Part shown: positions 16,274-58,626 of the stretch, piece by piece | How the letters are laid out: every line of letters starts with the position of its first letter | Position numbering within the stretch: the first letter of the stretch is position 1 | Assembly (NCBI RefSeq): GCF_003086295.3 | Contig: NC_092039.1 | Location: 70,823,649 to 70,887,648, forward strand | Reading direction: 5' to 3' | Source of the DNA: Arachis hypogaea | Taxonomy: Eukaryota > Streptophyta > Magnoliopsida > Fabales > Fabaceae | DNA length: 64,000 nt | Notes under the pieces: model-generated | Database searches by the model: none | Told to the model about the DNA's origin: nothing | What the model saw: only the letters and a program-made list of their open reading frames with translations | Program-made: the position numbers and the translations under genes

Positions 16274-16276
16274 TTT

Positions 16277-23702: not shown

Positions 23703-23719
23703 TCTTCTATTTTTGCTGA

Positions 23720-25488: not shown

Positions 25489-25494
25489 AAAACT

Positions 25495-27605
25495 TGACGT
25501 GTGGAAAGCGATCCAACACAAAACTCACCGACAAGTGTACCGGGTCGCATCAAGTAATAATAACTCACATGAGTGAGGTCGATCCCACAGGGATTGAAGG
25601 ATTGAGCAATTTTAGTTTAGTGGTTGATTTAGTCAAGCGAATCAGGTTTTGGTTGAGTGGGTTCTATTTAACAGAAGATAAATTGCTTGAAATGTAAATG
25701 GAGAAGGGAAATTGCAGTTAATTAAAGAACAGGAAAGTAAAATAGACTGAATCTTAAAGAACAAGAAATTAAATGACTGAAACTTAAAATACAAGAAATG
25801 TAAATTGCAGTAACTTAAATGGCAAGGAATGTAAATTGCTTGAATGTAAAAGGGATTTGAGGACTGGGATTGCAGAATCTAAACGAAGAGAAAGTAAATT
25901 GCAACAATTAATAAAGCAGAAATTGAATTGGAAGCAATGAAGACTCAAACAGAAATTGAAATTAAAGTGCAGCAAGGTTCACAGAAGAACCAAAAGTAAA
26001 TTGGGATCTCAGGGTTCAAGAGACTAGGTAGCAGAGCCTAGATCTCAATTACCTTCCTAGATCCAAGTTCTCAAAGCAATTGACAAGAAATTGAAGAAGA
26101 AACAGTAAAGAGAATGTGAATGGATTCAATTGTGCAGAAAAGAAATTAAAGAGACTTTGAATGGAGATTGAGACAGAATTTCCTCAATTCTTCACACCCA
26201 AAACTCAAAACAAGGAAATTAAAAAGACCCAAGCAAGAATGAGGAAGAAGAGAGATCAATTCCCCTCCCCAATTCTCTGAAATCTCAGTGAAGACACCAA
26301 GAGAAGTTCCAAAGTGCAAAAGTAAAATTCAAAGCTCAAAAGAAAGTGCAAAATTCAAAAGCTAAGCCAAAGGTCCTAATTACATCAAACTAGCTCCTAT
26401 TTATACACTTTCTATTCTTGGATTTTGGGATTTGGATGGGCTTTTGATTTGGTGAAGAAATGAATTAAAATGGATTTTGAATTAAATTTTCGGCCCAAAA
26501 AATAGCTTCCAGGAGGCTGCCCTGCCCTTGCAGGGCAGGATTTGGTGCGTGTTGGTGCTTGCTTGGTGCGGCTTGGTGCGGCTTGGTGCAGCCTGGTGCG
26601 CAGAACGCTGCCCTGCACGCGCGGAGGGCAGGGCAGGAAAAATTGGTGCGCCAGAAATGTGCCACGGTGCGTGCTTGGTGCTGCCAGATTCAAGCTGTGA
26701 TGCGTGCTGGTGCTGCCAGGATCGTGCCTTGGTGCGCAGAATGCTGCCCTGCCCTCGCGGAGGGCAGGGCAGAAAAACATGGTGCTGCCAGGATCGTGTG
26801 TGGTGCGCGCTGGTGCTGCCAGGGTAGTGATTTGGTGCGCCAGACTCACTTCTTGGTGCGCCAGAGTTGTGCACCAACAAAATGCTGCCCTGCCCTCGCG
26901 GAGGGCAGGGCAGTGTTTCCAAAATGAAGTCCCGCGTTCGAATCCGGGCAGAAACACACGCTCAGTCATTTTCCTTGGTTTCTTGGCACGGTAATGGGAC
27001 TTAGTTGTTTGCTTCTTTATGGTCCGGTGTTCAACTCTTGTGGCAAGCTTTTGGAGACATTTTCCTTTGATTTTCTTCCTTGGTGAGCCCGATACTGCCC
27101 TTGTGGAGGGCAGGGCAACATTTTATTCCTCTTGATTCCAAGGCACCAATTTGTGCTCTGCCCTTGTAGTGGGCAGGGCAGAGTTGCCTTCTTTGCTTGG
27201 TTCCCTTATGTTGCCCTCCTAGAGGGCAGTGTGCCCTTGTGGAGGGCAATGCTTGCCTCCCCCATTGTATGCGGCACACTTTTCCTTCCTTTGACCACGC
27301 TTCCTTCTCCTTGGGTCACGCTTTCTTAGGCCACGCTTTTCTCTTTTATTCTTTTCTTCACCTAAAATAAACCAAAACAACCACTCCAAGTATCACTAAA
27401 TTCATAAGGCTTATACATCAATTAAAATTCAATTAAAATTAGCTTAAACCTCATGAGTTAACATCAATTTCATGGTGGTTGCTTGATTTAAAGAAGTTGT
27501 GCATTTTCACTCCAAATCACTTACTTAAGAAGCAAGAAAGTGTATAAAGACTAATAAAACAAGTGAAATTAGCTTGAAAAATGGGTATATGATGACTTGC
27601 CATCA
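25495..27605 (-). repeat. 5' LTR of element A
   Basis: In element sense it starts at 27605. TATA box 26398-26405 (minus). The palindrome array is at 26515-27245, with a full extra unit at 26885-26913 not present in the 3' LTR. The U5 hairpin pairs CCGG with TCGG around TACACTTG. Outside the array the two LTRs differ only at scattered positions. Confidence 0.92.
26515..27245 (-). repeat. U3 palindrome array, A 5' LTR
   Basis: The same unit type as 21090-21770, but the first unit is shortened (CTGCCCTGCCCTTGCAGGGC) and an extra unit plus a 21-bp insertion is present at about 26844-26920. Confidence 0.85.
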
Positions 27606-27610: not shown

Positions 27611-28421
27611 GAGTGTCAGGGTTATATTCTGTTGACTACTAATGCGTTGGGTGTTGCCCAGAACTTAGATCAGATTTCGGTGGTTAGAGATTTTCCAGAA
27701 GTGTTCTCGGAAGATATCCCTGAATTCCCACCTCAAAGGGAAATCGAATTTGCAATTGAATTGGTGCCAGGAGCCAGACCAGTGTTAATTGTACCGTATA
27801 GAATGGCTCTGATAGAGCTGGCAGAATTAAAGACTCGGTTGGAAGAGCTTCTGAATAAGAGGTTCATTCGACCGAGTGTATCACCTTGGGGATTACCAGT
27901 TTTATTGGTAAATAAGAAAGATTGAGGAATGCGTTTGTGTGTGGATTACCGACAGTTAAACAAAGTGACAGTGAAAAACAAGTACCCACTGCCAAGGATA
28001 GATGACTTGATGGATCAACTGTAAGGATCTGGAGTGTTTTCCAAGATTGATTTGAGATCCGGTTACCATCAGATAGGGGTGAAGGAGGATGATATCCCTA
28101 AGACGGCGTTTAGGTCACGCTATGGACACTACGAGTTTGCGGTAATGTCCTTTAGATTAACGAATGCACCTGCTATTTTCATGGATTATATGAACAGAGT
28201 GTTTCGTCCCTTTTTAGACAAATTCGTGGTGGTTTTCATAGATGACATCTTAGTTTACTCTAAGACGGCAAAGGAGCATGAGGAACATTTGAGGATTGTG
28301 CTGTAAATCTTAAAGGAATGGAAATTGTATGCTAAGTTGTCGGAGTGTGAGTTCTGGAAGGAGGAAGTGAAGTTCTTAAGTCACGTGGTGAGTAAGGAGG
28401 AATATCCATAGTTCCTTCTCA
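27611..28421 (+). pseudogene. Reverse transcriptase of element B (broken)
   Basis: RNA/DNA-dependent polymerase domain, with the protease-RT linker first (FPEVFSEDIPEFPP). Motifs in order: [40 protein letters not shown] and the catalytic [10 protein letters not shown], where F replaces the usual Y. Reading is interrupted by TGA at 27923-27925 and TAA at 28021-28023 and near 28304. A frameshift near 28410 separates it from RNase H. In-frame with the PR piece at 20067 once A and one TSD copy are disregarded. Confidence 0.85.
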
Positions 28422-28422
28422 G

Positions 28423-29015
28423 GTGGAAACGGTGACGAAAATCAGAAGCACTTTGGGTTTAGTCGGACATTACCAGAGATTCATTGAAGGATTTTCCCGG
28501 ATTGCACTACCGATGACTAAGTTGACAAAAAGAGAAGTGCCATTCGTGTGGATGTCGGAGTCCAAAGAGAGTTTTCAGACTTTGAAGCAGAAGTTAACTT
28601 CAGCAACTGTTTTAATTTTACCGAAACCGCATGAACCATTTGAAGTATATTGTGATGCTTCTTCGAAAGGTTTGGGTTGCTTGTTGATGCAACACCGGAA
28701 CGTGGTGGCTTATGCATCGCGTCAATTGAGACTGTATGAGGTGAACTACCCAACTCATGACTTGGAATTAGCGGCGATTGTGTTTGCACTGAAGGTTTGG
28801 AGACACCACTTGTATAGAGTTAGGTTTAGCGTCTTTTCTGATCATAAGAGTCTCAAGTACATCTTTGATAAGAAAGAGTTAAATATGCACCAGAGAAGGT
28901 AGATGGAGTTGATTAAAGATTATGATTTTCAGTTGAGTTATCACCCTAGAAAGGCGAACGTGGTAGCAGATGCTTTGAGTCGGATGTCCTTGACAATAGC
29001 TTGGATGAGGATTAA
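28423..29015 (+). pseudogene. RNase H region of element B (broken)
   Basis: It degrades RNA in RNA-DNA hybrids during reverse transcription. It begins in the RT thumb/connection ([17 protein letters not shown]) and continues into RNase H with catalytic-type positions in [12 protein letters not shown], the [13 protein letters not shown] helix and the [12 protein letters not shown] motif. The end motif ADALSRM is at about 28966-28986. A stop at 28900-28902 (TAG after MHQRR) and another near 29017 interrupt it. Confidence 0.83.
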
Positions 29016-29199
29016 GTAAGAGGAGCTAGTAGATAAGTTTGTGAATCTTAAGCTAGATATTGGTGAAGTGGTCGGAAGGGCTTGTTTGAACCAGTTATAG
29101 ATCTCAAGCACGTTTAAATCAGAAATACAAAGGGCTCAGCAAGATGAGCAAAACCATCACCAATTGTTTCAACCAGTTGGTGATAAGAGGCATGAAGAA

Positions 29200-30588
29200 T
29201 TCACTAAGGATGATGAGGGGTTATGGAGGTACAAGGGAAGGATTTGTATGCCGGATGTTGGGAGTTTAAGGTAGGACTTATTGTTGGAAGCTCATTACAA
29301 CGGGTTTTCTATTCATCCCGGGAGTATGAAGTTGTATTATGACTTGAAGAAGATGTTCTGGTGGCCTAGGATAAAGGGTGATGTAGCAATAGTGGTATCC
29401 AAGTGTTTAACTTGCCAGAAGGTGAAGATAGAGCATCAGAAATCGTCAGGAATGCTACAACCAGTTGAGATTCCTCAGTGGAAGTGGGAAGGAATTACAA
29501 TGGATTTTGTGATAGGTTTACCGAAGACTAGGTCGGGATTTGATGCGATTTGGGTGATCATGGATCACTTAACCAAATTCGCTCACTTTCTGCCTATCCG
29601 AGTAAACTGTTCTATGAAGGAGTTGGCGAGATTGTACATTAAGGAGATAGTAAGGTTGCATGGTGTGCCGTCGAGCGTATTATTGGACCGTGATCCCCGA
29701 TTCACTATAAGGTTTTGGGGAGCTTTTCAAAGGGCTTTCAGTTTGAAGCTATGTCTCAGTACTGCATATCATCCGCAAACTGATAGACAGTCGGAGAGGA
29801 CTATTCAGACGTTGGAAGATATGATGAGAGCATGTGTTTTGGATCAACTTGGAAGTTTGGATCGTTACATGCCATTGGTGGAGTTTGCGTACAACAATAG
29901 CTTTTATGCGAGCATTGGGATGACTTTGTATGAAGCATTGTATGGACGGAAGTGCCAGTCTCGACTCTGTTGGTATGAATCAGGTGGAGCAAGTGCTTTG
30001 GGTCCATATTTGATAGCAGAGACTACTGAGAACCCTAAGAAGATTCGTGCAAGGATTCTAACTGCCCTAAGTCGACAGAAGAGTTATGCAAATCAGAGAT
30101 GGAAACCGTTAGAGTTTGAAGTGGGAGATCACGTATTCCTTAGGGTTACACCGACAATTGGGATTGGAAAAGCAATCAAGACCAAGAAGTTGAACCCAAG
30201 ATATATAGGACCATTTGAGATTTTGAAGAGATTCGGGCCGGTGGCGTATCAAGTAGCTTTACCACCTCATCTATCTAACTTACATGACATATTCCATGTG
30301 TCACAACTTTGTAAGTACACACCGGATGCTTCTCATGTGTTGGAGCCAGAGTCAGTTAAGTTGAAGGAGAATTTAACTTTCCAAGTAACGCCAGTGAGGA
30401 TCGATGACACTAGTGTGAAGAAGCTGCGAGGAAAGGATGTTTCATTGGTTAAATTTGCTTCGGAATGAGCAGGAGTAGAAGAGCACACTTGGGAATTGGA
30501 GTCCGAGATGCGAAAGGATTATCCCGAGCTATTCTCAGGTAATTCAAATTTTGAGGGTGAAATTTCTTATTTGGTGGGGAGAATGTAA
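29200..30588 (+). pseudogene. Integrase and chromodomain of element B (nearly open)
   Basis: Joins element cDNA to host DNA. A zinc-binding HHCC segment (AHYNGFSIHPG ... CLTCQK) is followed by the catalytic core with D in ITMDFVIGLP, D in LLDRDPRF and E in SERTIQTLED, spaced as in other Ty3/gypsy integrases. The position before SERT is Arg where Gly is usual. The GPF/Y module is YIGPFEILKR. A DIFHVSQLCKY segment leads into a chromodomain, interrupted by TGA at 30466-30468, and ends with HTWELESEMRKDYPELF. The chromodomain is thought to guide integration to marked chromatin. The run 29281-30468 is open for 395 codons. Confidence 0.88.
30573..30583 (+). other. Polypurine tract of element B
   Basis: GGTGGGGAGAA directly before the 3' LTR start TGTAAGAAACGC at 30584. 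Primer site for plus-strand DNA. Confidence 0.8.
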
Positions 30589-34085: not shown

Positions 34086-34751
34086 TTTTCAAGAGACTCC
34101 AAATCAACATCCCCTTTGCTGAAGCACTAGAGCAAATGCCACTCTATGCCAAGATTTTGAAGGAGCTAATGACCAAGAAAAAGAGCTGGAGAAATGATGA
34201 AAATTGTGGTGTTAACCGAGGAATGTAATGCTATCATTCAACATAAACTACCACAGAAGTTGAAGGACCCTGGGAGCTTCCAAATCCTTTGTGTCATAGG
34301 AGAAATCACAGTGGAGAAAGCTCTATGTAATTTGGGAGCCAGCATAAATCTAATGTCCTTAGCAATGATGAAAAGAATGAAGATTGAGGAAGCCAAACCA
34401 ATAAGAATGGCACTTCAATTAGCAGATCGATCATTCAGATTTCCCCATGGAATAGTAGAAGACTTGTTGGTGAAGCTGGGAGACATCTTCTTCCTAGCAG
34501 ACTTTGTGGTGTTGGATATAGAGGAAGAGACCAAAGGTTCAATCATTATGGGATGGCCGTTTCTAGCAACAACTAGAGCCATCATCGATGTCCAAAAAGG
34601 AAAACTCATTCTTAGACTACGTGATGAGAAAATGGTATTCAATGTGTTCAAGGCCATGAGTTACCCACAGGAATCACTAGGAGAATGCATGAGGTTGGAT
34701 GCAGTGGAGATATTAGTACAAGAAACCTTTGAAGAAGAAGAACTTGAGTAG
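34086..34751 (+). pseudogene. Protease region of element E, active-site Asp changed to Asn
   Basis: Athila-type aspartic protease. 34086-34190 encodes the NIPFAEALEQMPLYAK segment found before the protease in I and G. A frameshift near 34190 leads into a 185-codon frame. The active-site motif reads CNLGASINLM (AAT at 34329-34331), where I, G and J have CDLG. A conserved end segment, SIIMGWPFLATTRAIIDV, follows, then TAG at 34749-34751. The Asp-to-Asn change should abolish catalysis. It corresponds to a single G-to-A transition. Confidence 0.8.
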
Positions 34752-35395: not shown

Positions 35396-36704
35396 ATGGC
35401 GGACAACCTTGACAACGATCACAACTCCGATTTAGAAGAAAGGACGCCACATAAGAACACGGACTTCACACTGAAAGATACATCTCAACTAAACAGAGAC
35501 AAGCATTCTCCAAACACAGAAATTCTACATGCCCTCCAAGAATAGCAAGACCGTGTCAAGCAGCTCGAACAAGAAGTCGAACACCAGCGCGAAGCCAAAA
35601 GAGACCTTCGGAGGGAAACAAGACGACGCCGAGAGCTAGAGGACAAGCTCCTAAAGCTTGAGGCTGATCTCAAATCTAAAACCATTTGATCCAGTCAGGA
35701 AGATAGCTCGCACAAGGACCAAGATCCATTCACCAAAGAGATCATGAAAGCTAAAGTCCCAAAGGATTTCGAAGCTCCTGACATGACCCCATACGATGGT
35801 ACATCGGATCCGAGCCATCATCTTAGCAATTTTAGAAGTAGGATCTATCTCACGGATGCCTCAGATCAATAAAGCTTTCCCGACCACCTTAACCAAAATC
35901 GCAATAAAGTGGTTCGACAGCTTGCACCAAGGTCAATAGCAAGCTTCAATGACCTCGCCAAGAAGTTCCTAGCCAGATTTTCCATCCAAAAAGACAAAGC
36001 CAAACACGCCCCAAGGCTATTAGGATTAAGCAAGGAGATCGGAAGAGCCTCCATAACTACATAGAAAGATTCAACAAGGCGTGTCTAGACATACAAAGTC
36101 TGCCAACAGAAGTAGCCATCATGGGTCTCATCAATGGTCTTTGAGAAGGACCCTTTAGCCACTCCATATAAAAAAAGCATCCAACAACTCTAAATGAGGT
36201 ACAAGAACGGCAGAAAAGTATATTAACATGGAGGAGAACTCTTGACTAGGAGAAATTCAAAATCCGGATTCTCCTACCCTCCTCGGGACAAGGGTAAAGA
36301 GTCCGGGAAAAAAGAAGACCAGCCTACTGAAAAACCTAGAAAATACCACAACTACACTCCACTAAGAGTGTCCCTTGTGGATGTATACAGGGAGATATGC
36401 AACACTGAGAAAATCCCCCCCACCTTGCCCAATCAAACACAAAAGAGGAGGGGGAAATCGGGCAGAGTACTGCGGATACCACCGAATCTACGTACATTCT
36501 ACCAACGAGTGCTTCGACCTAAAGAATGTCATAGAGAAATTGGCAAGAGAAGGGCGACTAGATCGGTATTTAGCCAATAAAATAGATGAGCCAAGAAAAA
36601 GAAGAAAGGACGAAGAGGTCGGACAAACTGAATGCTCACCTCACACCCTTGAGAGACATGTGCATATGATAAATGGGGGATACGTAGGAGGAGGGATTTA
36701 TAAA
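35396..36704 (+). pseudogene. gag of element F (Tat-type), broken
   Basis: The ATG at 35396 starts MADNLDNDHNSD. It has a long charged coiled coil (about 35530-35690, RETRRRRELEDKL), then a gag domain with a TPYDGTSDPSHHLSNF segment near 35790 and an FNDLAKKFLARFSIQKDKAK segment near 35950. A Pro/Lys-rich linker (about 36250-36350) precedes a zinc-knuckle-like stretch with CGYHRIYVHSTNEC (36472-36513). At least six in-frame stops and several frameshifts are present. It ends with the HVHMINGGYVGGGIYK segment where G is inserted. Confidence 0.75.
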
Positions 36705-38940
36705 TGATCGGGGAAAACTTGTCTCTCAACAAATTCCCATTCGGCAAGTGTACCAAATTTGTCGTCAAGTAAAAACTCACAATAGAGTGAGGTCGAATCC
36801 CACATGGATTGATTGATCAAGCAACTTTAATTAGAGGAATGATCTAGTTGAGCGAATCCATGAATAGAGTTGACAATTGCAGAAATTAAAATGGCAAGAA
36901 AGTAAATGACTGAAAGTAAATGGCAGAATTGTAAATGGGAATAGGGGAATTGCTCATAAAAGTAAATTGCAGAAAATAAAGAGAATGGGTAAGATCAGAA
37001 ATGGGGAGTTCATTGGGCTTAGGAGATGTTGCATTCTCCGGATCAATTTCATTTTCATCTCTTCCTCAATCAATGCACTCATTGATCTCCTTGGCAATCT
37101 TAAGTGATTGAATCACAATTTCTTGCAATTCAATCTCTCAAATCTTGATCAATAGCCAATTCCTTGGTCAATTGCTCATGAGAAGAGATGAAGTGTGGTC
37201 ACTGATTATACCACATGCACTTCCCAAATCAAATGCTTAGAGGGTTATAACCACATACCCATCCACACTCAATTTGGTCCAGTATGAGAAAGCATTTCTA
37301 GCTAATCTCTTCATTCCTCTTTCAAGGATCCGAAGAGATCCATGTTTGAATAGCTTCTTTTCCAAGATCACTATCCAATTTGATGAAGATCGAAAGCTTT
37401 CAAGTAAAATCAAAAGGAAAGATAGAAGAAGAAGAAGAAAATTAGTGTTGATCCATCAAATTACAACAGAGCTCCCTAACCCAATGAAAGGGGTTTAGTT
37501 GTTCATAGCTCTAGAAATCAAAATCAAAGATGGAGAATACATGATAAAACTAGAAGTGCAGAGAAAGTAAAAATACAAGAGTAGTTCTCTCTCCTCGCCA
37601 AAAAGCTCCCTTCTATTTCAAAACTACTCCTATATATACTACTCTTCTCAGCTTCTAGTTAGCTCTCCAAGTCTTGGGCTTCTGGATCTTTGAAGCAGTT
37701 CCTTTCTTCAATTGGGCTTGGCTTACTTGTAGAGAGAAAGTGTGAAGTGGGCAGAGAGCTTTAGCTCAAGACGTTAGAGGTGTTTAATAGTTAGTGAAAA
37801 AACAAGTTCGAGAACGTTAGTGACACTTAACATTGTCACTAACGTTGCCATGCTCCCCTTTGTCTCCCGTTAAAGCCCACGTTAACTGGGTTAACGTGGC
37901 TTTTAACGTTGCCTTGTTAGCCTTCGAGAACGTTAGCGACACTCAACATTGTCACTAACGTTCAAGTGTGCCCCTTCTTGTTTCACGTTAAAGCTCACAT
38001 TAACTAGGTTAACGTGGCTTCTAACGTGGCTTCTGCCATCCTTCGAGAACATTAGTGACACTCAACATTGTCACTAACGTTCAAGTGTGCCCCTAGGTTT
38101 CACGTTAGAGTCCACGTTAACTAGGTTAACATGGCCATTCTTAGCCATCCCAACGTTAGTGACAATGTTGAGTGTCACTAACGTTGGCTCATTCTTCATT
38201 CCTCATCGTTAGCTTCCACGTTAACCAAGTTAACGTGAAGGTTAACGTGGCTCTTGGGGGTTGTGTGGTTGCTCCAACGTTAGTGACAATGTTGAGTGTC
38301 ACTAACGTTGTCGACAACTCTCTATCTCTTACGTTAGCTCCCACGTTAACCAAGTTAACATGGGAGTTAACGTGGCTATTTGCACCTTAGGCCAACGTTA
38401 ATGACAATGTTGAGTGTCACTAACGTTGACTTCTCTTCCCCCTTTAACGTTAGAGGCCACATTAACTAGGTTAATGTGGCTTCTAACGTGGCCATTTATG
38501 AGCAATTGCCAACGTTAGTGACAATGTTAAGTGTCACTAACGTTGGCTCAACTTCTCTTCTCTACGTTAGAGTTCACGTTAACTTGGTTAACGTGACTCT
38601 TTAACGTGGGCATTGATGGCTTTTGAGAGTGTTTTTGGCAATCACTTTTTTTTCTTAACTTTGCAAGTTACCTCCCATTCCTTGCTTCCTTTTGGTCCTG
38701 AAATCAAGCAATAGAGTGCATCAAAGTTCTAGTCCAAGTCATGGGTAATGCAATATACAATTTTGTCATTAAAATCATGCAAAATCCTCATGAAATAATG
38801 TAAAATGCACAATGTATGCTTGAATCAAGATCTGAGTGAATATTTGCCCAAAACTAACTTATTTCCTAAGAAAATGCATGAAATTACCTAAAAACAGTAA
38901 AGAAAAGGTCAGTGAAACTGGCCAAAATGCCCTGGCATCA
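36705..38940 (-). repeat. 3' LTR of element G
   Basis: In element sense it starts TGATGCCAGGGCATTT at 38940. TATA-like TATATATA at 37631-37638. The palindrome array at 37813-38595 lies upstream of it. The U5 hairpin pairs TTTGG with CCGAA around TACACTTG (about 36739-36756). The ORFs in it (such as 37274-37498 and 38172-38390) are repeats of the array or leader and are not supported. Confidence 0.93.
37813..38595 (-). repeat. Alternating two-palindrome array in the G 3' LTR
   Basis: Seven copies of palindrome P1 (34 bp; arms AACGTTAGTGACA and complement, 8-nt centre) alternate with seven of P2 (21 bp; arms CACGTTAAC and complement, 3-nt centre), with a period of about 115 bp. P1 starts: 37813, 37929, 38048, 38152, 38276, 38394, 38511. 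The P1 centre is inverted between the first three and last four copies. Confidence 0.92.
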
Positions 38941-38977
38941 CAACACCAAATTTAAAGCTTGCTTGTCCCTAAGCAAG
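38941..38977 (-). other. Candidate PPT and tetraloop hairpin of element G
   Basis: In element sense: CTTGCTT / AAGCAAG hairpin around GGGA (38958-38977), then TTTAAATTTGGTGTTG against the LTR edge. Confidence 0.6.
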
Positions 38978-40540
38978 TACTGGAACAAGAGAGTGATGAA
39001 TGAAATCTCCAGAGAAATGAGTCATTCTTGTGGAAGTCATATTACTGATTTTATGGTGGTTTCATGCATAGCAACTTAGGTTCATTCCACTACTGGCTTT
39101 CAGACCTTTATCATCTCCTAAATTACTCACTTTGTTATATCCCATGAGACCTTTATTTATTGATCCTTTTGTTGTTATTTCAAGAGCTTATTTGTGTTTT
39201 TAGGCTAAGTGTTTTGTAAGGGGGCAACTCTTTAGGATAAGCTTTCAGCCAACACTCCCGAACCAGTTGGTTCAAGGTGCTAGGTGTTGAAGCACCCCTA
39301 AGGACTTACTTACTCAAGTCTTTCCCCTATACATACACACTACAGGCATATAGTTTATTTATTTTCTTTCCTTGAGACCTTGGTGTCCAGCACCTCTTTA
39401 GGTTACTAAATGCTCTGTGGTGAGGGTTACTCTTGATAGTGGATTTTCAGCTGATAATCCTGGGTTAGTTAACCCAAGTTACCAGGTGATGAAGCACCCC
39501 AATGAGCTTATTCATCCAAGTATATCCCCCACACAGAAGCACTACAGACACATGTCTTAAGGCAAACCATTGGTGCCTAGCCTTATTGCTTACTCTTTTT
39601 CTTTTGTTTTTCACTTCCCTTGTTCTTTCCCTTCTTATTAGGATCTTGTTGTTATCTTAGTCTCATAGGTATATCAAAAGTAAAGCATTCAGGATAGATA
39701 GTTGTCATCCTAACCTTGTGGTTAAACCAACTTAGCTAACTTATGACTACCCCCAAAGATTCATGAATGCACTTCCACATTATGAACTCCTTTCTAGTCT
39801 TTTGTAAACATAGATATTCTCTTCTTCATACAAATAGACAAGCTTGCAAGTTAATAAGGGAAAGAAGCAGTGACACTTAAGCCAGAGTTCATGGTCCTGA
39901 GCAATAAGATCATTAAGATGCAGAATTGAAAATGTTCAAACTAACATGGAAGCATGTTCTATTCCATACAAGATCTTCCTTATTTAAAGCATAGAAAAAG
40001 AACTGGAGTAACGAAGGAACTCCACCATCTTTTACTTTTCTGGCCATCCTTGCTCTTTTCCTTGCTGGTCCTCCTTGTGTCCTCTTGCACTTCCTTGCAG
40101 CCGAGCCAATCTTGCTTGCTTCCAATCCGCAATTGCCTTCCTCACTGATTCATGGCTCTCTTCCACCCTTTGTCTCTCTTCTCGTGCTAGTTCATCCCTA
40201 TAAAGATGAAATAAGAAAAGTAAGAACTACTTTTATAAAAGAAACAAAAATGCTTTAACATCTACAGCTTGAATAATAAAAGAATTTGTTTATTCCTGAA
40301 TTCCACCAACTGACTAACTGTGTATCTTCAAATGCAGATTGGTGGCACCATAGGGTGACACCAAACTTAGTTTGGAGCACTGTGATGAAAATTTGTGTTC
40401 AAAGCTTTAAGAAGAATGCTTTGAACACCAAACTTGTTCTTCACTATATTATGCATATAAAAATTTCACACGTGTTTGTCATGTTATGGTTGGCATTCAT
40501 GAATATTGATTTATTCACTAACTTCTGAAAGCATGTAAAA
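38978..40540 (-). other. 3' untranslated region of element G
   Basis: No supported ORF in about 1.56 kb. PPT-like CCAAACTT copies lie near 40363 and 40428. Repeated segments such as GGTGTCCAGCACC and GCTAGGTGTTGAAGCACC suggest old internal duplications in 39240-39590. Confidence 0.55.
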
Positions 40541-40588
40541 CATGGGTTGCCTCCCATGAAGCACTTCTTTAGCGTCACTAGCTTGACG
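40541..40588 (-). promoter_or_regulatory. Conserved twin hairpin (element G copy)
   Basis: Hairpin 1 CGTCA-AGCTAG-TGACG (40588-40573), hairpin 2 stem CATGGG / CCCATG with loop AGGCAA (40558-40541). It begins 11 nt after the stop codon of the tail. Both stems differ from A, C, D and J at paired positions. Confidence 0.72.
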
Positions 40589-40599
40589 TTACCCCCTTA

Positions 40600-43410
40600 T
40601 TATGGTGGTTGGTAATGCTTGAAGTTTTCTCCTCTGGCAGTGCACTTGTATCCATTGGTTGTATCAATGATCTCTACATGCTCCAAGGAGAGAACTCTGT
40701 TGATGGTGAAGACCTCAGGTAGCTGAGATGGTACAGTGGGGAGATTAGGAGGGATATCTGTGAAGTAGGCTGAGATTACTTTATCCCCTGGAGAGAAATC
40801 TTCCGTAGGAATCTTCTTGTTCCGCCACCCCCTTGGTACCTTTTTCTTTGCCCCTGGTGCTGTTTTCTTACTCCTGGTGGCCTCCTTCTTTGATGAGCTT
40901 TTGTTAATGTCCTCACAAACTTCTGGTGGCTTAGGTTCCTCCAATTTTTCCTTGACCTGTGGCACTTGCTGCTGGCCTTGTCCATCAGCCCAGTGAATCT
41001 CAGGATGAGCTGGTTGTGCTTCAGTGCTTGCTTCTTCCTTTAGTATCTCATGATGATCTTTGCCCGGTTCTTTGTCCTCTTCATCTTTTTCTAGTGAGAG
41101 TTCGAAAACACTGAAGCTCAGTTGTTCATCATGGATCCTTAATATTAACTATCCTTTCTCCACATCTATGAGTGCTCTAGCAGTAGCTAGAAATGGTCTC
41201 CCCAATATGATTGGGTGCAGGTGACTCTCTTCCATGTCCAGGATGACAAAGTCTGTTGGGAGAAAGTATTTTCCAAATTTGAGCAACACGTTTTCCACCA
41301 CTCCTACTGCTTGCTTTTGAGTCTTGTCGGCCAGCCTTATGACTACATCTGTAGGTAGTATCTCATTGATCTGCAGCCTTTTTACCAGTGATAGGGGTAT
41401 TAAGTTGATGCTTTCTCCCAAATCGCAAAGTGCTCTATCAAAATTTGTTTCCCATATAGCACAAGGGACATGAAAACTTCCTGGGTCTTTTCTTTTCACA
41501 GGCAATTGTGTTTGAATGAGGGTGCTGCAATCCTTGTTCATCACTATAGTCTGGCCCCCCTTGAGTGAGCTCTTCCTAAGAAGTAGTTCCTTCATATACT
41601 TGATGAATGCTGGCATTTGCTGAATGACCTTGATGAATGGTATGTTCACATTCAAAGATGCAAACGAGTCTAAGAACTTTGAGTATATTCTTTTTCCCAC
41701 AGCACCCTTTAGTAGTTGAGGAAATGGTGTGTATAGTCTCAGCAGCTCCTGTTGTCAGATTTCTGGTTCTTGTTGGTCTTTCTTCTCCCTCTCTACTAAG
41801 GTATTTTCAGGTTGTTCTGACAGCTTGCTTGGCTTGTCTTCGGTCTCCTTGTCATTTGTAGTGACCATATTGCAGTCTTCCCATCTTACTTTCTTTGCTT
41901 CACCTCTCGGATTCTTCTCCGTGTCACTTGGGAAGCTATCAGTGGGTCTGGGAATCTTCTCAGACAGATATCCCACTTGGAATTCCAGCTTCTTGATTGC
42001 TTCCCCCCAATTCTTCATACTGGCTCTCACCTCCTCTTTGAACACCTTATTGTCTTGAATGTCTTTGCATATGCTCTCAAGTAAGGTTTCAATCTTAGAG
42101 ATTCTGTCATCAAATGATGGTATGTTGGGGGTAGAGGTAGAAGGGTGAGATGTATTGATGTGGTTTTGTGGGTATGTCCTCTGTGTGAATTGTTGGGGGG
42201 CTGTGTTGTTGTTGGAGTTGTGGCGTCTCTGATCTTGGCCTTGGTCTTGTTGATTACCCCACCCAAAGTTTGGGTGATTCCTCCATCCAGGGTTGTAGGT
42301 CTTGGAGTATGGATCATGGTTGTATCTAGGTGAATTCCCAATGTAGTTGGCTTGCTCCTGAGTGCCTTCTTCCTCTTCACTTGCTCCCTCTTGAGTTAAA
42401 GTGGTGATTGCTGTCACTTGACTTCTCTCCATCTTCTTGGTGAGGTCAGCTAGCTGCTTGGTGATTAGCTTGTTTTGAGCAAGCAGAGCATCTACATTGT
42501 TCAGCTCTATTACTCCTCTAGTGTTCCCTCTTTCGGAAGCATAGAAGTAGTCATTCTCAGCTACAGTTTCAATGACATCTATGGCTTCCTCAATGGTCTT
42601 CTTCTTGTTCAAAGAACCTCCGGATGAATGGTCTACGGCCTTCTTAGATTCATTTGACAGTCCTTCATAGAAGATGTGCAACTGTACCCATTCATTGAAC
42701 ATATCAGATGGACATCTCCTTGTTAGGTCTTTAAACCTCTCCCATGCTTCATATAGAGTCTCACCATCTTGTTGCCTGAAAGTTTGGACCTCAGCTCTCA
42801 GCCGATTGACTCGTTGAGGGGGGTAAAATCTTGCTAAGAATTTGTTCATAACATCATCCCAAGTTGTCAATCTCTCCTTTGGAAAAGACTCCAAACACTT
42901 GGTTGCCTTGTCTCTGAGAGAGAATGGGAACAACAACAGTCTATAGGCGTCAGGTTGAACGCCATTGGACTTCACTGTGTCACATATTCTCAGGAATGTG
43001 TTTAAGTGTTGGTTGGGGTCTTCATGAACACCTCCTCCGATCGAACAATTGTTCTGAACAAGGGTGATGACCTGTGGCTTTAGTTCAAAGTTGTTGGCAT
43101 GGATGGTTGGTTTTTGGATGCTACTTCCGCAGTTCCCTGGGTTTAGGTTAATGTAAGAGCCCAAGACTCTTCTATCTTCCCCACCAGGATTTGCTCTACC
43201 TCTTCCATCATGGTTGTGCACCTCTTCCTCACGATGGTCTTCCATGGTTTTTTCAAAGTATTCTTCCAAGTGTTCCTCTTCTTCTTCAGCACCCACTACA
43301 CGTTTTTCTTTTGCCTCCGTTCTTAATCTTAAGAAGGTTCTTTCAGGTTCAGAATCAAAGGAAGTTGAAGCTCCGCTTCTTCTCCCTGTCATACAACCAA
43401 CAGAGTACAA
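40600..43410 (-). pseudogene. gag-protease-integrase-tail polyprotein of element G (two in-frame stops)
   Basis: One frame of about 937 codons, stopped only by TGA at 41757-41755 and TAG at 41151-41149. The N-terminus is Arg/Glu-rich (about residues 7-90). The gag domain runs to about residue 280: NNFELKPQVITLVQNNCS, LLLFPFSLRDKA, FLARFYPPQ and FYEGLSNESKKAVDHSSGGS. The YNPGWRNHPNFGWGN motif is at about 370. A coiled coil near 440-480 follows. The protease has CDLGESINLIPLS as active site and HPIILGRPFLATARALIDV as end segment. The final 120 codons are a Lys-rich linker and an integrase-C-terminal-like module (FSPGDKVI ... VEIIDTTNGY ... FKHYQPP). RT, RNase H and integrase core are missing between protease and tail. 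Confidence 0.82.
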
Positions 43411-43654
43411 GCAAGAAAAGCAATGCAGAAAGTATCTTGTTAGAATTACTTGTTAGTGTCAGTGATGCAATATATCAAACAGTTAGTGGGTTAGTGAACT
43501 GAATTATAAATAGCAAAGAAAAACTAAGAAACAGGGGAGGGGAAGAATTAAACTAAGACGGAAAGCAAATTAACCAAACAAAAAATTAAATCAAACAAAA
43601 TACAAATGCTCAATCTAGTGATCCCCTAATGTAATCATTGTCGATGCACAATCA

Positions 43655-43673
43655 ATCCCCGGCAACGGCGCCA
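43655..43673 (-). other. Primer-binding site of element G (tRNA-Asp type)
   Basis: The minus strand reads TGGCGCCGTTGCCGGGGAT, a perfect tRNA-Asp 3'-end complement, 6 nt from the LTR edge at 43680. Confidence 0.92.
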
Positions 43674-43679
43674 TAAACT

Positions 43680-45926
43680 TGATCGGGGAAAAACTTGTCT
43701 CTCAATAAATTCCCATTCGGCAAGTGTACCGAATTCGTCGTCAAGTAAAAACTCACAATAGAGTGAGGTCGAATCCCACAGGGATTGATTGATCAAGCAA
43801 CTTTAATTAGAGGAATGATCTAGTTGAGCGAATCCATGAATAGAGTTGATAATTGCAGAAATTAAAATGGCAAGAAAGTAAATGACTGAAAGTAAATGGC
43901 AGAATTGTAAATGGGAATGGGGGAATTGCTCATAAAAGTAAATTGTATAAAATAAAGAGAATGGGTAAGATCAGAAATGGGGAGTTCATTGGGCTTAGGA
44001 GATGTTGCATTCTCCGGATCAATTTCATTTTCATCTCTTCCTCAATCAATGCACTCATTGATCTCCTTGGCAATCTTAAGTGATTGAATCATAATTTCTT
44101 GCAATTCAATCTCTCAAATCTTGATCAATAGCCAATTCCTTGGTCAATTGCTCATGAGAAGAGATGAAGTGTGGTCACTGATTATACCACATGCACTTCC
44201 CAAATCAAATGCTTAGAGGGTTATAGCCACATACCCATCCACACTCAATTTGGTCCAGCATGAGAAAGCATTTCTAGCTAATCTCTTCATTCCTCTTTCA
44301 AGGATCCGAAGAGATCCATGTTTGAATAGCTTCTTTTCCAAGATCACTATCCAATTTGATGAAGATCGAAAGCTTTCAAGTAAAATCAAAAGGAAAGATA
44401 GAAGAAGAAGAAGAAAATTAGTGTTGATCCATCAAATTACAACAGAGCTCCCTAACCCAATGAAAGGGGTTTAGTTGTTCATAGCTCTAGAAATCAAAAT
44501 CAAAGATGGAGAATACATGATAAAACTAGAAGTGCAGAGAAAGTAAAAATACAAGAGTAGTTCTCTCTCCTCGCCAAAAAGCTCCCTTCTCTTTCAAAAC
44601 TACTCCTATATATACTACTCTTCTCAGCTTCTAGTTAGCTCTCCAAGTCTTGGGCTTCTGGATCTTTGAAGCAGTTCCTTTCTTCAATTGGGCTTGGCTT
44701 ACTTGCAGAGAGAAAGAGTGAAGTGGGCAGAGAGCTTTAGCTCAAGACGTTAGGGGTGTTTAATAGTTAGTGAAAATACAAGTTCGAGAACGTTAGTGAC
44801 ACTTAACATTGTCACTAACGTTGCCATGCTCCCCTTTGTCTCCCGTTAAAGCCCACGTTAACTGGGTTAACATGGCTTTTAACGTTGCCTTGTTAGCCTT
44901 CGAGAACGTTAGTGACACTCAACATTGTCACTAACGTTCAAGTGTGTCCTTCTTGTTTCACGTTAAAGCTCACGTTAACTAGGTTAACGTGGCTTCTAAC
45001 ATGGCTTCTGCCATCCTTCGAGAACGTTAGTGACACTCAACATTGTCACTAACGTTCAAGTGTGCCCCTAGGTTTCACGTTATAGTCCATGTTAACTAGG
45101 TTAACGTGGCTTCTAACGTGGCCATTCTTAGCCATCCCAACGTTAGTGACAATGTTGAGTGTCACTAACGTTGGCTCATTCTTCATTCGTCATCGTTAGC
45201 TTCCACGTTAACCAAGTTAACGTGAAGGTTAACGTGGCTCTTGGGGGTTGTGTGGTTGCTCCAACGTTAGTGACAATGTTGAGTGTCACTAACGTTGTCG
45301 ACAACTCTCTATCTCTTACGTTAGCTCCCACGTTAACCAAGTTAACGTGGGAGTTAACGTGGCTATTTGCACCTTAGGCCAACGTTAGTGACAATGTTGA
45401 GTGTCACTAACGTTGGCTTCTCTTCCCCCTTTAACGTTAGAGGCCACGTTAACTTGGTTAACGTGGCTTCTAACGTGGCCATTTATGAGCAATTGCCAAC
45501 GTTAGTGACAATGTTAAGTGTCACTAACGTTGGCTCAACTTCTCTTCTCTACGTTAGAGTTCACGTTAACTTGGTTAACGTGACTCTTTAACGTGGGCAT
45601 TGATGGCTTTTGAGAGTGTTTTTGGCAATCACTTTTCTCCTTAACTTTGCAAGTTACCTCCCATTCCTTGCTTCCTTTTGGTCCTGAAATCAAGCAATAG
45701 AGTGCATCAAAGTTCTAGTCCAAGTCATGGGTAATGCAATATACAATTTTGTCATTAAAATCATGCAAAATCCTCATGAAATAATGTAAAATGCACAATG
45801 TATGCTTGAATCAAGATCTGAGTGAATATTTGCCCAAAACTAACTTTTTTCCTAAGAAAATGCATGAAATTACCTAAAAACAGTAAAGAAAAGGTCAGTA
45901 AAACTGGCCAAAATGCCCTGGCATCA
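43680..45926 (-). repeat. 5' LTR of element G
   Basis: 2247 bp. TATATATA at 44607-44614. U5 hairpins: ATTCGG / CCGAAT around TACACTTG (43715-43734) and CTCAC / GTGAG (43752-43767). Array at 44789-45582. Nearly identical to the 3' LTR. Confidence 0.93.
44789..45582 (-). repeat. Alternating two-palindrome array in the G 5' LTR
   Basis: The same P1/P2 alternation as 37813-38595, with seven of each and the same inversion of the P1 centre after the third copy. Unit number is the same in both LTRs. Confidence 0.9.
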
Positions 45927-49883: not shown

Positions 49884-51526
49884 TGGTGGACGAAATTGTG
49901 ATTGCCCTCTTTGTATTTGCATGAGATTTATTTAATGGCTCTTTGGCATGTGTGATCACAACTACGTTCAACTTAACCAGCAAGTGTACTGGGTCATCCA
50001 TGTAATACCTTACGTGAGTAAGGGTCGATCCCACAGAGATTGTTGGTATGAAGCAAGCTATGGTCACGTTGTAAATCTCAGTTAGGCAGATTAAATAGTT
50101 TATGATGAGTTCGAAAATTAATTAATAAAAAGAAAATAACAGGGATAGAAATACTTATGTAAATCAATAGTGGGAATTTCAGATAAGTGTGTGAAGATGC
50201 TGTGCTCCTCTCGTATCTCTATTTTCTTATTACATTCATCCAATCCTTCCTACTCCTTTCCATGGCAAGCTGTATGTAGGGCATCACCGTTGTCAATGGC
50301 TACATCCCATCCTCTCAGTGAAAACGTTCCTATGCTCTGTCACAGCACGGCTAATCATCTGTCGGTTCTCAATCAGGTTGGAGTAGAATCCCTTGATTCT
50401 TTTGCGCTTGTCATGACGCCCAGCCTTCAGGAGTTTGAAGTTCATCACAGTCATTCAATCCCAGAATCTTACTCGGAATACCATAGACAAGGTTTAGACT
50501 TTCCGGATCCTCATGAATGCCGCCATCTATCTAGCTTATACCACGAAGATTCTGTTGGGGAATCTAAGAGATATGCGCCCGGCCTAAAGTAGAACGGAAG
50601 TGGTTGTCAGTCACGTACGTTCATAGGTGAGAATGATGATGAGTGTCACGGATCATCACATTCATCAAAGTTAAGTATAACGTATATCTTGGAATAAGGA
50701 TAGAAGAGAATTGAATAGAAAGTAATAATAATTGTATTGAAACTTGAGGTACAGCAGAGCTCCACACCTTAATCTATGGTGTGCAGAAACTCCACTGTTG
50801 AAAATACATAAGTAAAAGGTTCAGGCATGGCCGAATGGCCAGCCTTCTCCATGATCAAGAGACCGAATAGTCAAAAGATTAAACTGTCAAAAGATGTCTA
50901 ATACAATAGTAACTTATCCTATTTATACTAGACTAGCTACTAGGGTTTACATGAGTAAGTAATTGATGCATAAATCCACTTCCGGGGCCCACTTGGTGTA
51001 TGCTTGGACTGAGCTTGATCTATTCACGAGCTGAGGCTTTTCTTGGAGTTGAACTCCAAGTTATAACGTGTTTTGGGCGTTCAACTCCGGATCATGACGT
51101 TTTTCTGGCGTTTAACTCTAGACAGCAGCATGTACTTGGCGTTCAACACCAAGTTACGTCATCAATTTCCAAATAAAGTATAGACTATTATATGTTGCTG
51201 GAACGCTCTGGATGTCTACTTTCCAACACCGTTGAGAGCGCACCAATTGGAGTTCTGTAGCTCCAGAAAGTCTATTTCTAGTGCAGGGACGTCAGATTCC
51301 AACAGCATCAGCAGTCCTTTTGTCAGCCTTTTTCAGAGTTTTGCTCAAGTCCCTCAATTTCAGCCAGAAATTACCTGAAATTACAGAAAAACACACAAAC
51401 TCATAGTAAAGTCCAGAAATGTGAATTTAACATAAAAAATAATGAAAACATCACTAAAAGTAGCTTGATCTTACTAAAAACTACCTAAAAATAATGCAAA
51501 AACGCGTATAAATTATCCGCTCATCA
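49884..51526 (-). repeat. 3' LTR of element J
   Basis: In element sense it starts TGATGAGCGGATAATT at 51526 and ends TCCACCA. TATA box TATTTATA at 50920-50927 (minus TATAAATA). GGCGTTNAAC-type palindromes at about 51040-51150 lie upstream of it. U5: CCTTAC-TCAC-GTAAGG (50008-50023) and CCAG-TACACTTG-CTGG (49977-49992). Confidence 0.93.
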
Positions 51527-51564
51527 CAACAACAAACTTAAATTGTTGCTTGTCCCCAAGCAAC
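51527..51564 (-). other. Candidate PPT and tetraloop hairpin of element J
   Basis: In element sense: GTTGCTTG-GGGA-CAAGCAAC (51564-51545), then TTTAAGTTTGTTGTTG against the LTR edge. Confidence 0.62.
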
Positions 51565-52638
51565 TGAAAATCAATTAGGATAAAAAGAAGAGAATATACT
51601 ATAAATTTCAAAATATCAATGAATATTAATTCTAATTAGATGAGCGGGACTTGTAGCTTTTTGCTTCTGAACAGTTTTGGCATCTCACTTTTTCCTTTGA
51701 AGTTTAGAATGATTGGCTTCTCTAGGAACTTAGAATTTCGGATAGTGTTATTGACTTTCCTAGTTAAGCATGTTGATTCTTGAACACAGCTACTTATGAG
51801 TCTTGGCCGTGGCCCTAAGCATTTTGTTTTCCAGTATTACCACCGGATACACAAATGCCACAGACACATGACTGGGTGAACCTTTTCAGACTGTGACTCA
51901 GCTTTGCTAGAGTCCCCAGTTAGTAGTGTCCAGAGCTCTTAAGCACACTCTTGCTTTGGATCACAACTTTAACCACTCAATCTCAAGCTTTTCACTTGGA
52001 CCTTCATGACACAAGCACATGGTTAGGGACAGCTTGATTTAGCCGCTTAGGCCTGGATTTTATTTCCTTGGGCCCTCCTATCCATTGATGCTCAAAGCCT
52101 TGGATCCTTTTTACCCTTGCCTTTTGGTTTTAAGGGCTATTGGCTTTTTCTGCTTGCTTTTTCTTTTTCTTTCTATATTTTTTTTCGCCTATTTTATTTT
52201 TCTTTTTTTTTTCACAAGCTTTTTACTTTTCACTGCTTTTTCTTGCTTCAAGAATCAATTTCATGATTTTTCAGATCATCAATAACATTTCTCTTTGTTC
52301 ATCATTCTTTCAAGAGCCAACAGTTTTAACATTCATAAACAACAAGATCAAAAATATGCACTGTTCAAGCATTCATTCAGAAAACAAAAAGTATTGTCAC
52401 CACATCAATATAATTAAATTAAATTCAATGATAAATTCAAAATTCATGTACTTCTTGTTCTTTTGAATTAAAATATTTTTCATTTAAGAGAGGTGAAGCA
52501 TTAATGGAATTTATTCATAGCTTTAAGACATGGTTACTACATACTAATGATCATGAAGTAGAGACACAAAACATAGATAAACACAACATTTAAAAACTGA
52601 AAACAGAAAGAAATAAAGAACAAGGAATGAATCCACCT
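51565..52638 (-). other. 3' untranslated region of element J
   Basis: No supported ORF. 51640-52080 matches 7300-7790 of D in inverse orientation. A strong pyrimidine run lies at 52140-52250 (purine-rich in element sense). Confidence 0.6.
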
Positions 52639-53775
52639 TTAGTGGCGTCTTCTTCTTGAAGGACCAACAATGTCCTTAAGCTCTTCTATGTCCCTTCCTT
52701 GCCTTTGTTGCTCCTCCCTCATTGCTCTTTGATCTTCTCTTATTTCTTGGAGAATGATGGAGTGCTCATGATGTTCCACCCTTAATTGTTCCACATTGTG
52801 GCTCAAATCTTCTAAAGAGGTGTTGAGTTGCTCCCAATAGTTGTTATGAGGAAAGTGCATCCCTTGAGGCATCTCAGGAATTTGTTGATGATGAGCTTCC
52901 TCATGCATCTCTTGAGGACCGTGAAGGATCTCTCTTGCTTGCTCCATCCTCTTCTTGGTGATGGGCTTATCCTTTTCAATGGGGATGTCTCCTTCTATGA
53001 TAACTCCAGCTGAGTAACATAGATGGCAAATAAGGTGAGGAAAAGCTAGCTGTGCCATTGTGGAGGACTTGTCGGCTATTTTGTAGATTTCATTGGAGAT
53101 GACCTCATGAACTTCTACTTCCTCTCCAATCATGATGCTATGAATCATGATGGCCCGATCCACAATAACTTCAGATCGGTTGCTAGTAGGAATGATGGAG
53201 CGTTGAATGAACTCTAACCATCCTCTAGCCACAGGCTTGAGGTCCAGTCTTCTTAGTTGAACTGGCTTGCCTTTGGAGTCTATTCTTCATCGAGCTCCTT
53301 CCACACATATGTCCATTAGGACTTGGTCCAACCTTTGATTAAAGTTGACCCTTCAAGTGTAGGGGCGTTCATCTCCTTGCATCATAGGCAAGTGAAATGC
53401 CAACCTCACATTTTCCCGACTAAAATCTAAGTATTTCCCCCGAACCATTGTGAGATAATTCTTTGGATTCGGGTTCATACTTTGATCATGGTTCCTAGTG
53501 ATCCATGCATTGGCATAGAACTCTTGAACCATTAAGATTCCGACTTGTTGCATGGGGTTGGTTATGACTTCCCAACCTCTTCTTCGGATCTCATGTCGGA
53601 TCTCCGGATACTCATTTTTCTTGAGCTTGAAAGGGACCTCAGGGATCACCTTCTTCTTTGCCACAACATTATAGAAGTGGTCTTGATGGCTCTTGGAGAT
53701 GAATCTTTCCATCTCCTATGACTCGGAGGTGGAAGCTTTTGTCTTCCCTTTTCCTTTTCCGGCCTTGGGTGCCAT
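52639..53775 (-). pseudogene. ORF2 of element J (putative plant transposon protein), three in-frame stops
   Basis: The ATG at 53775 gives MAPKAGKGKGKTKAST and one frame of 378 codons to 52639. The middle has the conserved blocks QEFYANAW, TMVRGKYLDFS and LAFHLPMMQGD. A block with RAIMIHSIMIGEEVEVHEVI lies near codons 205-225 and IEKDKPITKK near 255. The C-terminus is a Gln/Glu/Arg coiled coil ending GPSRRRRH. Stops: TAG near 53718, TGA at 53355-53353, TGA near 53289. The two TGA codons are each one C-to-T step from CGA (Arg). No frameshift is seen. It lies downstream of its own array, TATA-like site and tetraloop module. Confidence 0.8.
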
Positions 53776-53814
53776 TGATGGTGATGGAAAAAAATAAAAA
53801 GCTTATGCTTTTAC

Positions 53815-53848
53815 CACACCAAACTTAAAATATTTCTCGTCCTCGAGC
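53815..53848 (-). other. Tetraloop hairpin and PPT-like motif before J ORF2
   Basis: In element sense: CTCG-AGGA-CGAG (53847-53836), then TTTTAAGTTTGGTGTGG (about 53829-53815). Same layout as the 3' PPT module, with a changed stem. Confidence 0.55.
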
Positions 53849-53968
53849 AAGAGAAGAAAGAAGAGAAGAAGAAGAAGAAGAAAATATGGAGGAGAGGGAG
53901 AGATGTAGGTTCGGTCAAGGTGAAGAAGAAGGGGTTGTGATGTGTGAAAATGAAGTAGAATGGAAGGG

Positions 53969-53976
53969 TATATATA
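53969..53976 (-). promoter_or_regulatory. Putative internal TATA box of element J
   Basis: TATATATA, about 350 bp downstream of the internal palindrome array and about 190 bp upstream of the ORF2 ATG in element sense. In the LTR, array and TATA are about 110 bp apart. Confidence 0.4.
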
Positions 53977-54322
53977 AGGAGAGGGGGTAGTGTGTATTCG
54001 GCCATTTAGGGTGGGAATGGGTGGGAAAATGTTTTTGAATTTTTGAAAGTAGGTGGGGTTTATGGGGAAGAGTGGATGGATTTGAGTGGTGAAGGGGGTG
54101 ATTGGGAAGAGGAATTGAGGTGATTGGTGAAGAGTGTTGGGAAGTGTGACATGGGGAAGAGTAGTCACAAAAATAGGATTAGGAGGTAAGGTGGGAATAT
54201 AGTAGGTGGGGATCCTGTGGGGTTCACAGATCCTGAGGTGATCCTGTGGGGGTCCACAGATCCTGACGTGTCAAGGAATTCCATCCCTGCACCAAATAGG
54301 CATGTAAAATGCCTTTGCACAC

Positions 54323-54570: not shown

Positions 54571-54711
54571 TGTGCGTCCTCCAGGGTGTGAATTTTTTCT
54601 TCTACTGTTTTTGATTCTGTTTTTAATTTTTATGATTTTTTCGTGACTCGTCATGATCATGTACCTAATAAAACATAAAATAACAATAAAATAAAAATTA
54701 GATAAATAAAA

Positions 54712-54758: not shown

Positions 54759-54790
54759 GTGGCCCTCATGGAGCCACAAAGGTGATCATG

Positions 54791-58620: not shown

Positions 58621-58626
58621 AAAACT

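Follow-up and report, generated by a model that had tools for sequence, protein, structure and literature searches.

What keeps some 50 nt recognisably alike in LTR retrotransposons that share little else around them? The question is raised by a 64,000-nt stretch of the Arachis hypogaea genome (the whole stretch analysed, called here the window), which carries five copies of the same pair of short hairpins. To our knowledge little has been established about cis-acting RNA signals in plant LTR retrotransposons, and there is no clear account of what the non-autonomous elements, which form much of plant genomes, must keep. The twin hairpin is a conserved, covarying element of Athila-like LTR retrotransposons lying just 3' of the gag/pol stop codon, and it is probably a cis-acting RNA control signal, a function that we infer. 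It is short and testable, could serve as a marker of the lineage in its various families, and could give a handle on how the RNA of the lineage avoids decay or is packaged.

Anatomy of the twin hairpin and its host elements

The five copies are present where the first-pass annotation had placed them, at 2507-2553 (copy A), 14499-14548 (C), 23655-23702 (G), 40541-40588 (D) and 54712-54758 (J); the element sense is the plus strand for copy A and the minus strand for the other four. Read in that sense, about 50 nt comprise hairpin 1, an A-rich spacer, a linker with AAGCGCTT or a variant of it, and hairpin 2. Hairpin 1 has a stem of at most five pairs and an AGCTA-like loop, while hairpin 2 has the stem NN-TGGG/CCCA-NN and the loop AGGCAA. 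In copy D, hairpin 2 (CATGGG AGGCAA CCCATG) lies at 40541-40558, the linker with AAGTGCTT at 40559-40572 and hairpin 1 (CGTCA AGCTAG TGACG) at 40573-40588, all on the minus strand; among its sister copies the linker has AAGCGCTT in L003-L008 and AAGCACTT in L002. Hairpins 2 and 1 lie on the minus strand at 54711-54728 and 54743-54758 in copy J, at 23655-23672 and 23687-23702 in copy G, and at 14499-14516 and 14534-14548 (GTCC AACTTAA GGAC) in copy C. On the plus strand, copy A has hairpin 1 at 2506-2521 and hairpin 2 at 2536-2553. The window holds no sixth copy, the next model match after the five scoring 10.4 bits, and no Rfam family matched above its gathering score within it.

The earlier description of hairpin 2 held throughout. 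The inner stem TGGG/CCCA is found in all five copies, the loop is AGGCAA in four of them and AGACAA in copy C, and the pair adjoining the inner stem is C-G in A, T-A in G and J, A-T in D and G-C in C, the two sides agreeing in every copy. At the outermost position stands G-C, C-G or G.U, the last of these in copy J. For hairpin 1 the forms TGTCA/TGACA, CGTCA/TGACG and GTCC/GGAC were recovered as described, but copy A forms only three pairs (GTC/GAC). This weak hairpin 1 is a feature of the 2507 family that goes beyond the first-pass annotation: in 13 of 13 A-type copies it is cut to about GTC/GAC, two of the five pairs being absent. An exact ACTGAG..CTCAGT repeat stands just upstream, around the pol stop codon (about 2470-2510 in the window), in 10 of these 13 copies (with L010, L024, L044, L053, L054, L059, L063, L064 and L065) and is altered in L023, L047 and L068; possibly it replaces hairpin 1.

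The regions of the five copies, each with 600 nt on either side, were compared locally in 10 pairs. Seven comparisons gave a match, every one over the twin hairpin, with identities of 80-91% across 45-50 nt in six pairs and of 76% across 66 nt between A and C; copy C gave no match with D, G or J in these ±600-nt comparisons. The only other matches in these regions were two short ones between A and J, about 240-420 nt downstream. Within those 1.2 kb the twin hairpin is an island. Farther out some stretches do align, with 86-88% identity between the LTRs of A and those of G and 67% across 290 nt between pieces of the gag regions of D and J. Elements A and J also have in common GGCGTT.AACGCC-like repeats downstream of the hairpins (2794-2815 and 2924-2976; 54322-54374).

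Three of the host elements have paired LTRs, all on the minus strand, and each holds one twin hairpin (3/3). Element D spans 36700-45926 (LTRs 36700-38940 and 43673-45926, 97.7% identical), with about 1.6 kb from the twin hairpin to the 3' LTR; element J spans 49884-60271 (LTRs 49884-51527 and 58627-60271, 97.4%), and element G spans 20068-27605 (LTRs 20068-22122 and 25495-27605, 95.8%). Gag ORFs matching PF03732 lie on the minus strand at 41758-43452 in D, 54794-57010 in J and 23844-25355 in G; D also has a protease, and D and G an integrase-like tail. Between gag and the hairpins no reverse transcriptase (RT), RNase H or integrase core was found in D, G or J, and the gag frames run up to the hairpins, or nearly so, leaving no room for an RT or an integrase core. 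The twin hairpin is kept in elements that have lost both, a point that the first-pass annotation had missed. The LTR identities of 95.8-97.7% suggest that these elements moved fairly recently with helper enzymes.

In a fourth gag-bearing element, whose gag occupies 61382-62368, the copy falls 340 bases past the window end (L009:340), so that four of the four window elements with a Pfam gag match carry the twin hairpin. The model search found none in the neighbouring element with an SH3_Tf2-1 integrase (28396-30468), which we take to be of chromovirus type. A relative of A-type elsewhere in the genome, L023, shows in broken frames the order PF03732, PF13650, PF00078, PF17917, PF00665, twin hairpin (5316-5367) and PF20167, that is gag, protease, RT, RNase H, integrase, twin hairpin and the PF20167 ORF. 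The label Athila-like given at first pass fits this anatomy of gag, protease, RT, RNase H and integrase followed by an extra ORF; beyond anatomy the lineage name is an assumption that follows the first-pass annotation.

Several other features of these elements were recorded. Some gag or gag-protease frames end, by eye, in a look-alike of the integrase C-terminus (FS.GDKV-like .. LRHx..QPP, then stop), as if Gag were fused to it; these tails lie at 40603-41148 (-) and 23723-24025 (-) in the window, L009:1-336 (+) and L013:9728-10000 (-), and the piece in D has no Pfam match. The polypurine-like AAGTTTGGTGT adjoins the 3' LTR of G (22126) and recurs inside G, D and J, its positions being 22126, 23333, 23527, 23576, 40359, 40426, 53817, 54811, 54844 and 54877; at the end of the gag ORF of J it is repeated in frame (..NSKFGV..). 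The stretch 34088-34652 (+) is 65% like 63264-63828 of the element with gag at 61382, with no copy detected after it; this possible counter-example may be a truncated fragment. Positions 1-2004 are 70-78% like 15653-17785 in the same orientation and, on this likeness, probably belong to a C-like minus-strand element rather than to element A. The LTRs of D (37796-38618 and 44772-45605) contain internal low-identity repeats in both orientations.

Pairing, copy number and a second plant

Selection for RNA structure had been proposed from the five copies, on the understanding that stem changes should covary beyond phylogenetic expectation in a larger alignment of independent families. Pair types were counted in a 51-copy alignment (42 distinct) drawn from 68 copies after near-duplicates had been dropped (5 of 28 model matches, 12 of 40 cores). 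It includes 28 copies chosen by the exact core, a choice that biases the four inner pairs of their hairpin 2, the five discovery copies and four chosen by likeness to copy D. Among the 42 distinct copies the pair next to TGGG/CCCA is U-A in 21, C-G in 10, A-U in 8 and G-C in 3 and never unpaired, and the outermost pair of hairpin 2 is G-U in 18, G-C in 11, C-G in 8 and A-U in 4, with one unpaired.

A second set of 56 copies (26 distinct), from which the five discovery copies were left out, had not been chosen for the next-to-core pair. All 56 have a Watson-Crick pair at that position, against 66% expected if the two sides varied independently. The outermost pair of hairpin 2 is Watson-Crick in 17 and G.U in 38 (84% expected to be paired), and in hairpin 1 the outer and the inner pair each form in 43 of 56 copies, against expectations of 70% and 57%. 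The null model re-placed the substitutions of each column on the branches of a tree, which keeps relatedness, and R-scape was not the program used. The double-change score summed to 1.182, the null gave 0.151 ± 0.108, and 0 of 500 replicates came up to the observed value; these figures are indicative because the tree was built from the same short columns. For single pairs the observed value was reached by 0 replicates of 500 (next-to-core), 2 (outermost), 3 (hairpin 1 inner) and 76 (hairpin 1 outer); with all copies except L076, which has hairpin 2 only and was left out of this test (61 distinct copies, identical ones counted once), hairpin 1 gave 0/500 for the inner and 9/500 for the outer pair. 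Copies that had been picked by an A-T or a G-C pair (for each, 20 out of 100 listed places) were kept out of the test of that pair. In 16 rows picked as family representatives five pairs change on both sides (12/500 shuffles reach this); further pair types were no more numerous than in shuffles (308/500), and the other measures were reached by 0/500. The hairpin 1 counts of the 51-copy and 16-row sets are lowered, as the C-type rows stand one column out of register.

The forms of hairpin 1 include TGTCA/TGACA, CGTCA/TGACG, CGTCG/CGACG and CGTCC/GGACG, with CATCG/CGATG and GTCG/CGAC in the second plant described below. TGAC-type protein-binding repeats were considered as the sole cause of the inverted repeat and rejected, since CGTCC/GGACG, CGTCG/CGACG and CATCG/CGATG pair and yet lose TGAC on at least one arm. 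Selection for RNA structure has thus survived a partial run of the proposed test, with more families and a null that keeps relatedness (0/500), and the twin hairpin is almost certainly a real structured RNA.

The genome was sampled over 200 kb of its 2.56 Gb (50 kb directly after the window, 10 kb before it and 140 kb on seven other contigs). Model R1, built from the five window copies as had been recommended at first pass, matched 16 further copies there at 41-74 bits (E below 1e-9), the next best match having 12 bits and E 0.28; a rebuilt model, R2, recovered the same 16, some of which were among the copies used to build it. The exact 14-base core TGGGAGGCAACCCA occurs 27,255 + 27,179 = 54,434 times in the genome and its reversed-pattern control 0 times, which rules out a chance origin. 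Forty cores were fetched regardless of pairing, being the first 40 of 100 listed places and all on contig C1: hairpin 1 has four or five pairs in 30 of them, three in nine A-type copies and two in L032. Fully matched 16-mers number 9,070 with C-G, 4,596 with A-T and 166 with G-C as the next-to-core pair. The viral contigs searched yielded no relative.

When a 20-base pattern was run against contigs of bacteria and archaea, it matched one contig, from Candidatus Burkholderia humilis, and two more copies were found in the same assembly (three in total); under stricter filters the 57 remaining genomes of the genus gave no copy. The locus has a CACTA transposase, a Ty3-type gag and, farther on, a bacterial-type esterase, and it is therefore taken as DNA of the host plant, presumably Psychotria (Rubiaceae), co-assembled with its leaf symbiont. 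In L109, one of the three copies, the frame before the stop has no significant Pfam match. In L109, L116 and L117 plant-like retroelement pieces are joined to high-GC sequence (GC about 0.40 to 0.60), and these junctions are probably assembly chimeras. Between the 64-kb window and the three loci the sole match (E <= 1e-4) is the twin hairpin, with 82% identity over 50 nt. Against the pairing, U faces U beside TGGG/CCCA in two of the three copies. Judged by these sequences, the twin hairpin seems to be present in the DNA of a second plant as well. Should the host belong to the coffee family, the twin hairpin would be older than the rosid/asterid split; horizontal transfer is another possible source of these copies.

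Distance to the stop codon and possible functions

The twin hairpin lies close to a stop codon, an observation that is new here and absent from the first-pass annotation. From the last gag/pol stop to hairpin 1 there are 7-18 nt in most copies measured and 26-37 nt in three J-type copies (26 in L017, 32 in window copy J and 37 in L026). Among 27 copies ending in ..QPP-stop, a sample with many close relatives of which 16 come from the set picked by the A-T pair, 24 have a spacer of 11 nt and the remaining three have spacers of 9, 13 and 17 nt. It measures 10-11 nt in A-type copies (window A, L010, L023 and L024), 18 nt in L011, L012, L013:2005, L015 and L027, and 9, 15, 11 and 17 nt after the other tails of L018, L022, L009:7752 and L028; in three C-type copies, with the frame assumed, it measures 7, 10 and 10 nt. 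The copies of the second plant follow their stop by 14 (L109), 14 (L111) and 17 nt (L112).

In the window the stop of the integrase-like tail frame of copy D is at 40600-40602 (-), 11 nt before hairpin 1, and is followed at once by a second stop. The corresponding stop of copy G (..LRHCDLQPP, then stop) is at 23720-23722 (-), 17 nt before; that of the 739-aa gag ORF of copy J is at 54791-54793 (-), 32 nt before; and that of the integrase-like C-terminal frame of copy A is at 2493-2495 (+), 10 nt before the hairpin 1 register. In copy C the frame that leads to the nearby stop is open for just 12 codons. In L018, L022, L010, L023, L024 and L009:7752 an integrase or integrase-like C-terminus, recognised by eye, ends at a pol stop 9-15 nt before hairpin 1, with Pfam support in L022 and L023. 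The tails after the ..KHY/KLY stretch differ among families and the stop stays near hairpin 1; some of this regularity may reflect common ancestry of the integrase tail.

The explanation that we prefer is that the twin hairpin would act as RNA on the full-length, translated transcript. With the usual spacer of about 11 nt hairpin 1 would start roughly where the footprint of the terminating ribosome ends, so that the twin hairpin could stay folded during translation. Its task would be coupled to termination: the stop would be marked as genuine and the full-length RNA spared nonsense-mediated decay despite its long untranslated remainder. Non-autonomous elements would retain it since their own gag message needs it in cis. 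Drawn by analogy, this explanation as a whole has in our judgement a probability of roughly 0.42, and a role coupled to termination, taken by itself, falls somewhat short of an even chance. Against decay protection stand the three J-type spacers of 26-37 nt, the 12-codon frame of copy C, the possible common ancestry of the integrase tails, a mixed plant precedent, the greater length of the retroviral element compared below, and the A-type hairpin 1, short of two pairs. The strongest form of the proposal, a 50-nt plant counterpart of the retroviral stability element, with tens of thousands of copies and common to distant eudicots, that stands at the leading edge of the ribosome on the gag/pol stop, lets the full-length RNA escape nonsense-mediated decay and is obligatory for every amplified family, autonomous or not, is rather unlikely.

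The main rival to decay protection, itself doubtful, is a role in packaging or dimerisation, in which the twin hairpin would be recognised by Gag or by another copy of the RNA and the linker would start the dimer. Packaging would explain why elements without an RT or integrase core keep the structure, but not why it lies close to the stop codon. The AAGCGCTT-like 8-mer of the linker is self-complementary, with G.U allowed, in 50 of the 56 unselected copies, and co-folding of two copies gave an intermolecular linker duplex with the hairpins kept in seven of eight family representatives, the exception being C; a palindrome of such length is, however, expected to co-fold anyway, and it is disrupted in C-type linkers (of the 40 linkers from sets picked by their A-T or G-C pair, 18 are self-complementary). 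As a proven dimer site the palindrome finds no support beyond the tree null, 126/500 replicates reaching its covariation. Retroviral dimerisation and packaging hairpins, which sit in the 5' leader, also have a self-complementary stretch, but here the structure lies downstream of pol, and it carries its palindrome in the linker instead of a loop.

It is quite unlikely that the twin hairpin serves translation of the downstream PF20167 ORF, by termination-reinitiation or internal entry. An ORF of this kind does follow it in A, C, J and L023 (in J at 52642-53286 (-), between the hairpins and the 3' LTR), but G has no listed ORF of at least 70 aa and D only one of 78 aa before the 3' LTR, both keep the twin hairpin, and the PF20167 pieces begin several hundred bases or more downstream. 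A signal in reverse transcription or in DNA, either a second plus-strand start at a polypurine-like motif or a protein-binding inverted repeat, we consider very unlikely. AAGTTTGGTGT recurs near the twin hairpin in G, D and J, but in varying order and distance (on both sides in J, downstream in G and D), and the frequent G.U at the outermost pair (38/56) favours RNA.

Stimulation of stop-codon readthrough is suggested by the succession of stop, spacer and structure, with a spacer length that resembles that of recoding signals, and where the longest frame nearby is of gag/pol type (15 copies), at least 21 codons are open past the stop in all but one. It is nevertheless highly improbable because the frame is not kept: spacers of 7, 9, 10, 11, 13, 14, 15, 17 and 18 nt fall in all three frames, the extensions, of 0-53 codons, do not reach the PF20167 pieces in A, C and J, a second stop directly follows the first in D and K (L009:336), and copy A has only six open codons past its stop. 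Selection on a VKLVTLKKRLLGGNP-like peptide, suggested by one frame with a similar translation in A, G, D and J, is hardly credible and was rejected, the stretch lying after the pol stop, its frame being shifted by +1 (L018) and +2 (C-type) bases, and its changes following base pairing.

Relation to known elements

The core 13-mer occurred in no paper, and the 14 papers with one of four 12-mers included, by title, none on plant retroelements; among the matches listed there is no description of the twin hairpin, and an earlier description is possible. Athila4, Calypso and Diaspora have the same general anatomy as the window elements. In the available text of the Diaspora paper (PMC1142308) the terms hairpin, inverted repeat and secondary structure have 0 occurrences, the available parts of PMC1142308, PMC11963269 and PMC2829016 mention no such element after pol, and in the part of PMC11410651 at hand hairpin refers to RNAi constructs. 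An extra PPT is reported for the linkers of Athila4 and Calypso, and conserved inverted repeats for Sirevirus at the PPT/3' LTR junction and the gag/pol boundary (PMC2829016, partial text). The Sirevirus motifs differ from the twin hairpin in that they belong to Ty1/copia elements and are not at the pol stop, and that part of the source makes no claim of covariation (PMC2829016).

In Turnip crinkle virus, studied in N. benthamiana, a readthrough structure after the stop protects a reporter from decay, and in the same plant assay an unstructured post-stop region protects too, a hairpin made there abolishing the protection (PMC6277124, available text). These stop-proximal elements likewise follow a stop and were assayed in a plant, but the virus is unrelated and its other protective region is unstructured (PMC6277124, same text).

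The nearest working model, by analogy, is the stability element (RSE) of Rous sarcoma virus, for which the available text of PMC2925335 gives a minimal length of 155 nt with the key parts within 100 nt. The twin hairpin is unlike it in measuring about 50 nt, in coming from plants and in having two short hairpins, and protection from decay would be carried over to it by analogy only. With the RSE it shares its place as a structured RNA directly after a stop codon, the gag stop in the RSE and the gag/pol stop here, with the three J-type copies standing 26-37 nt away, on the full-length message of a retroelement and before a long untranslated remainder.
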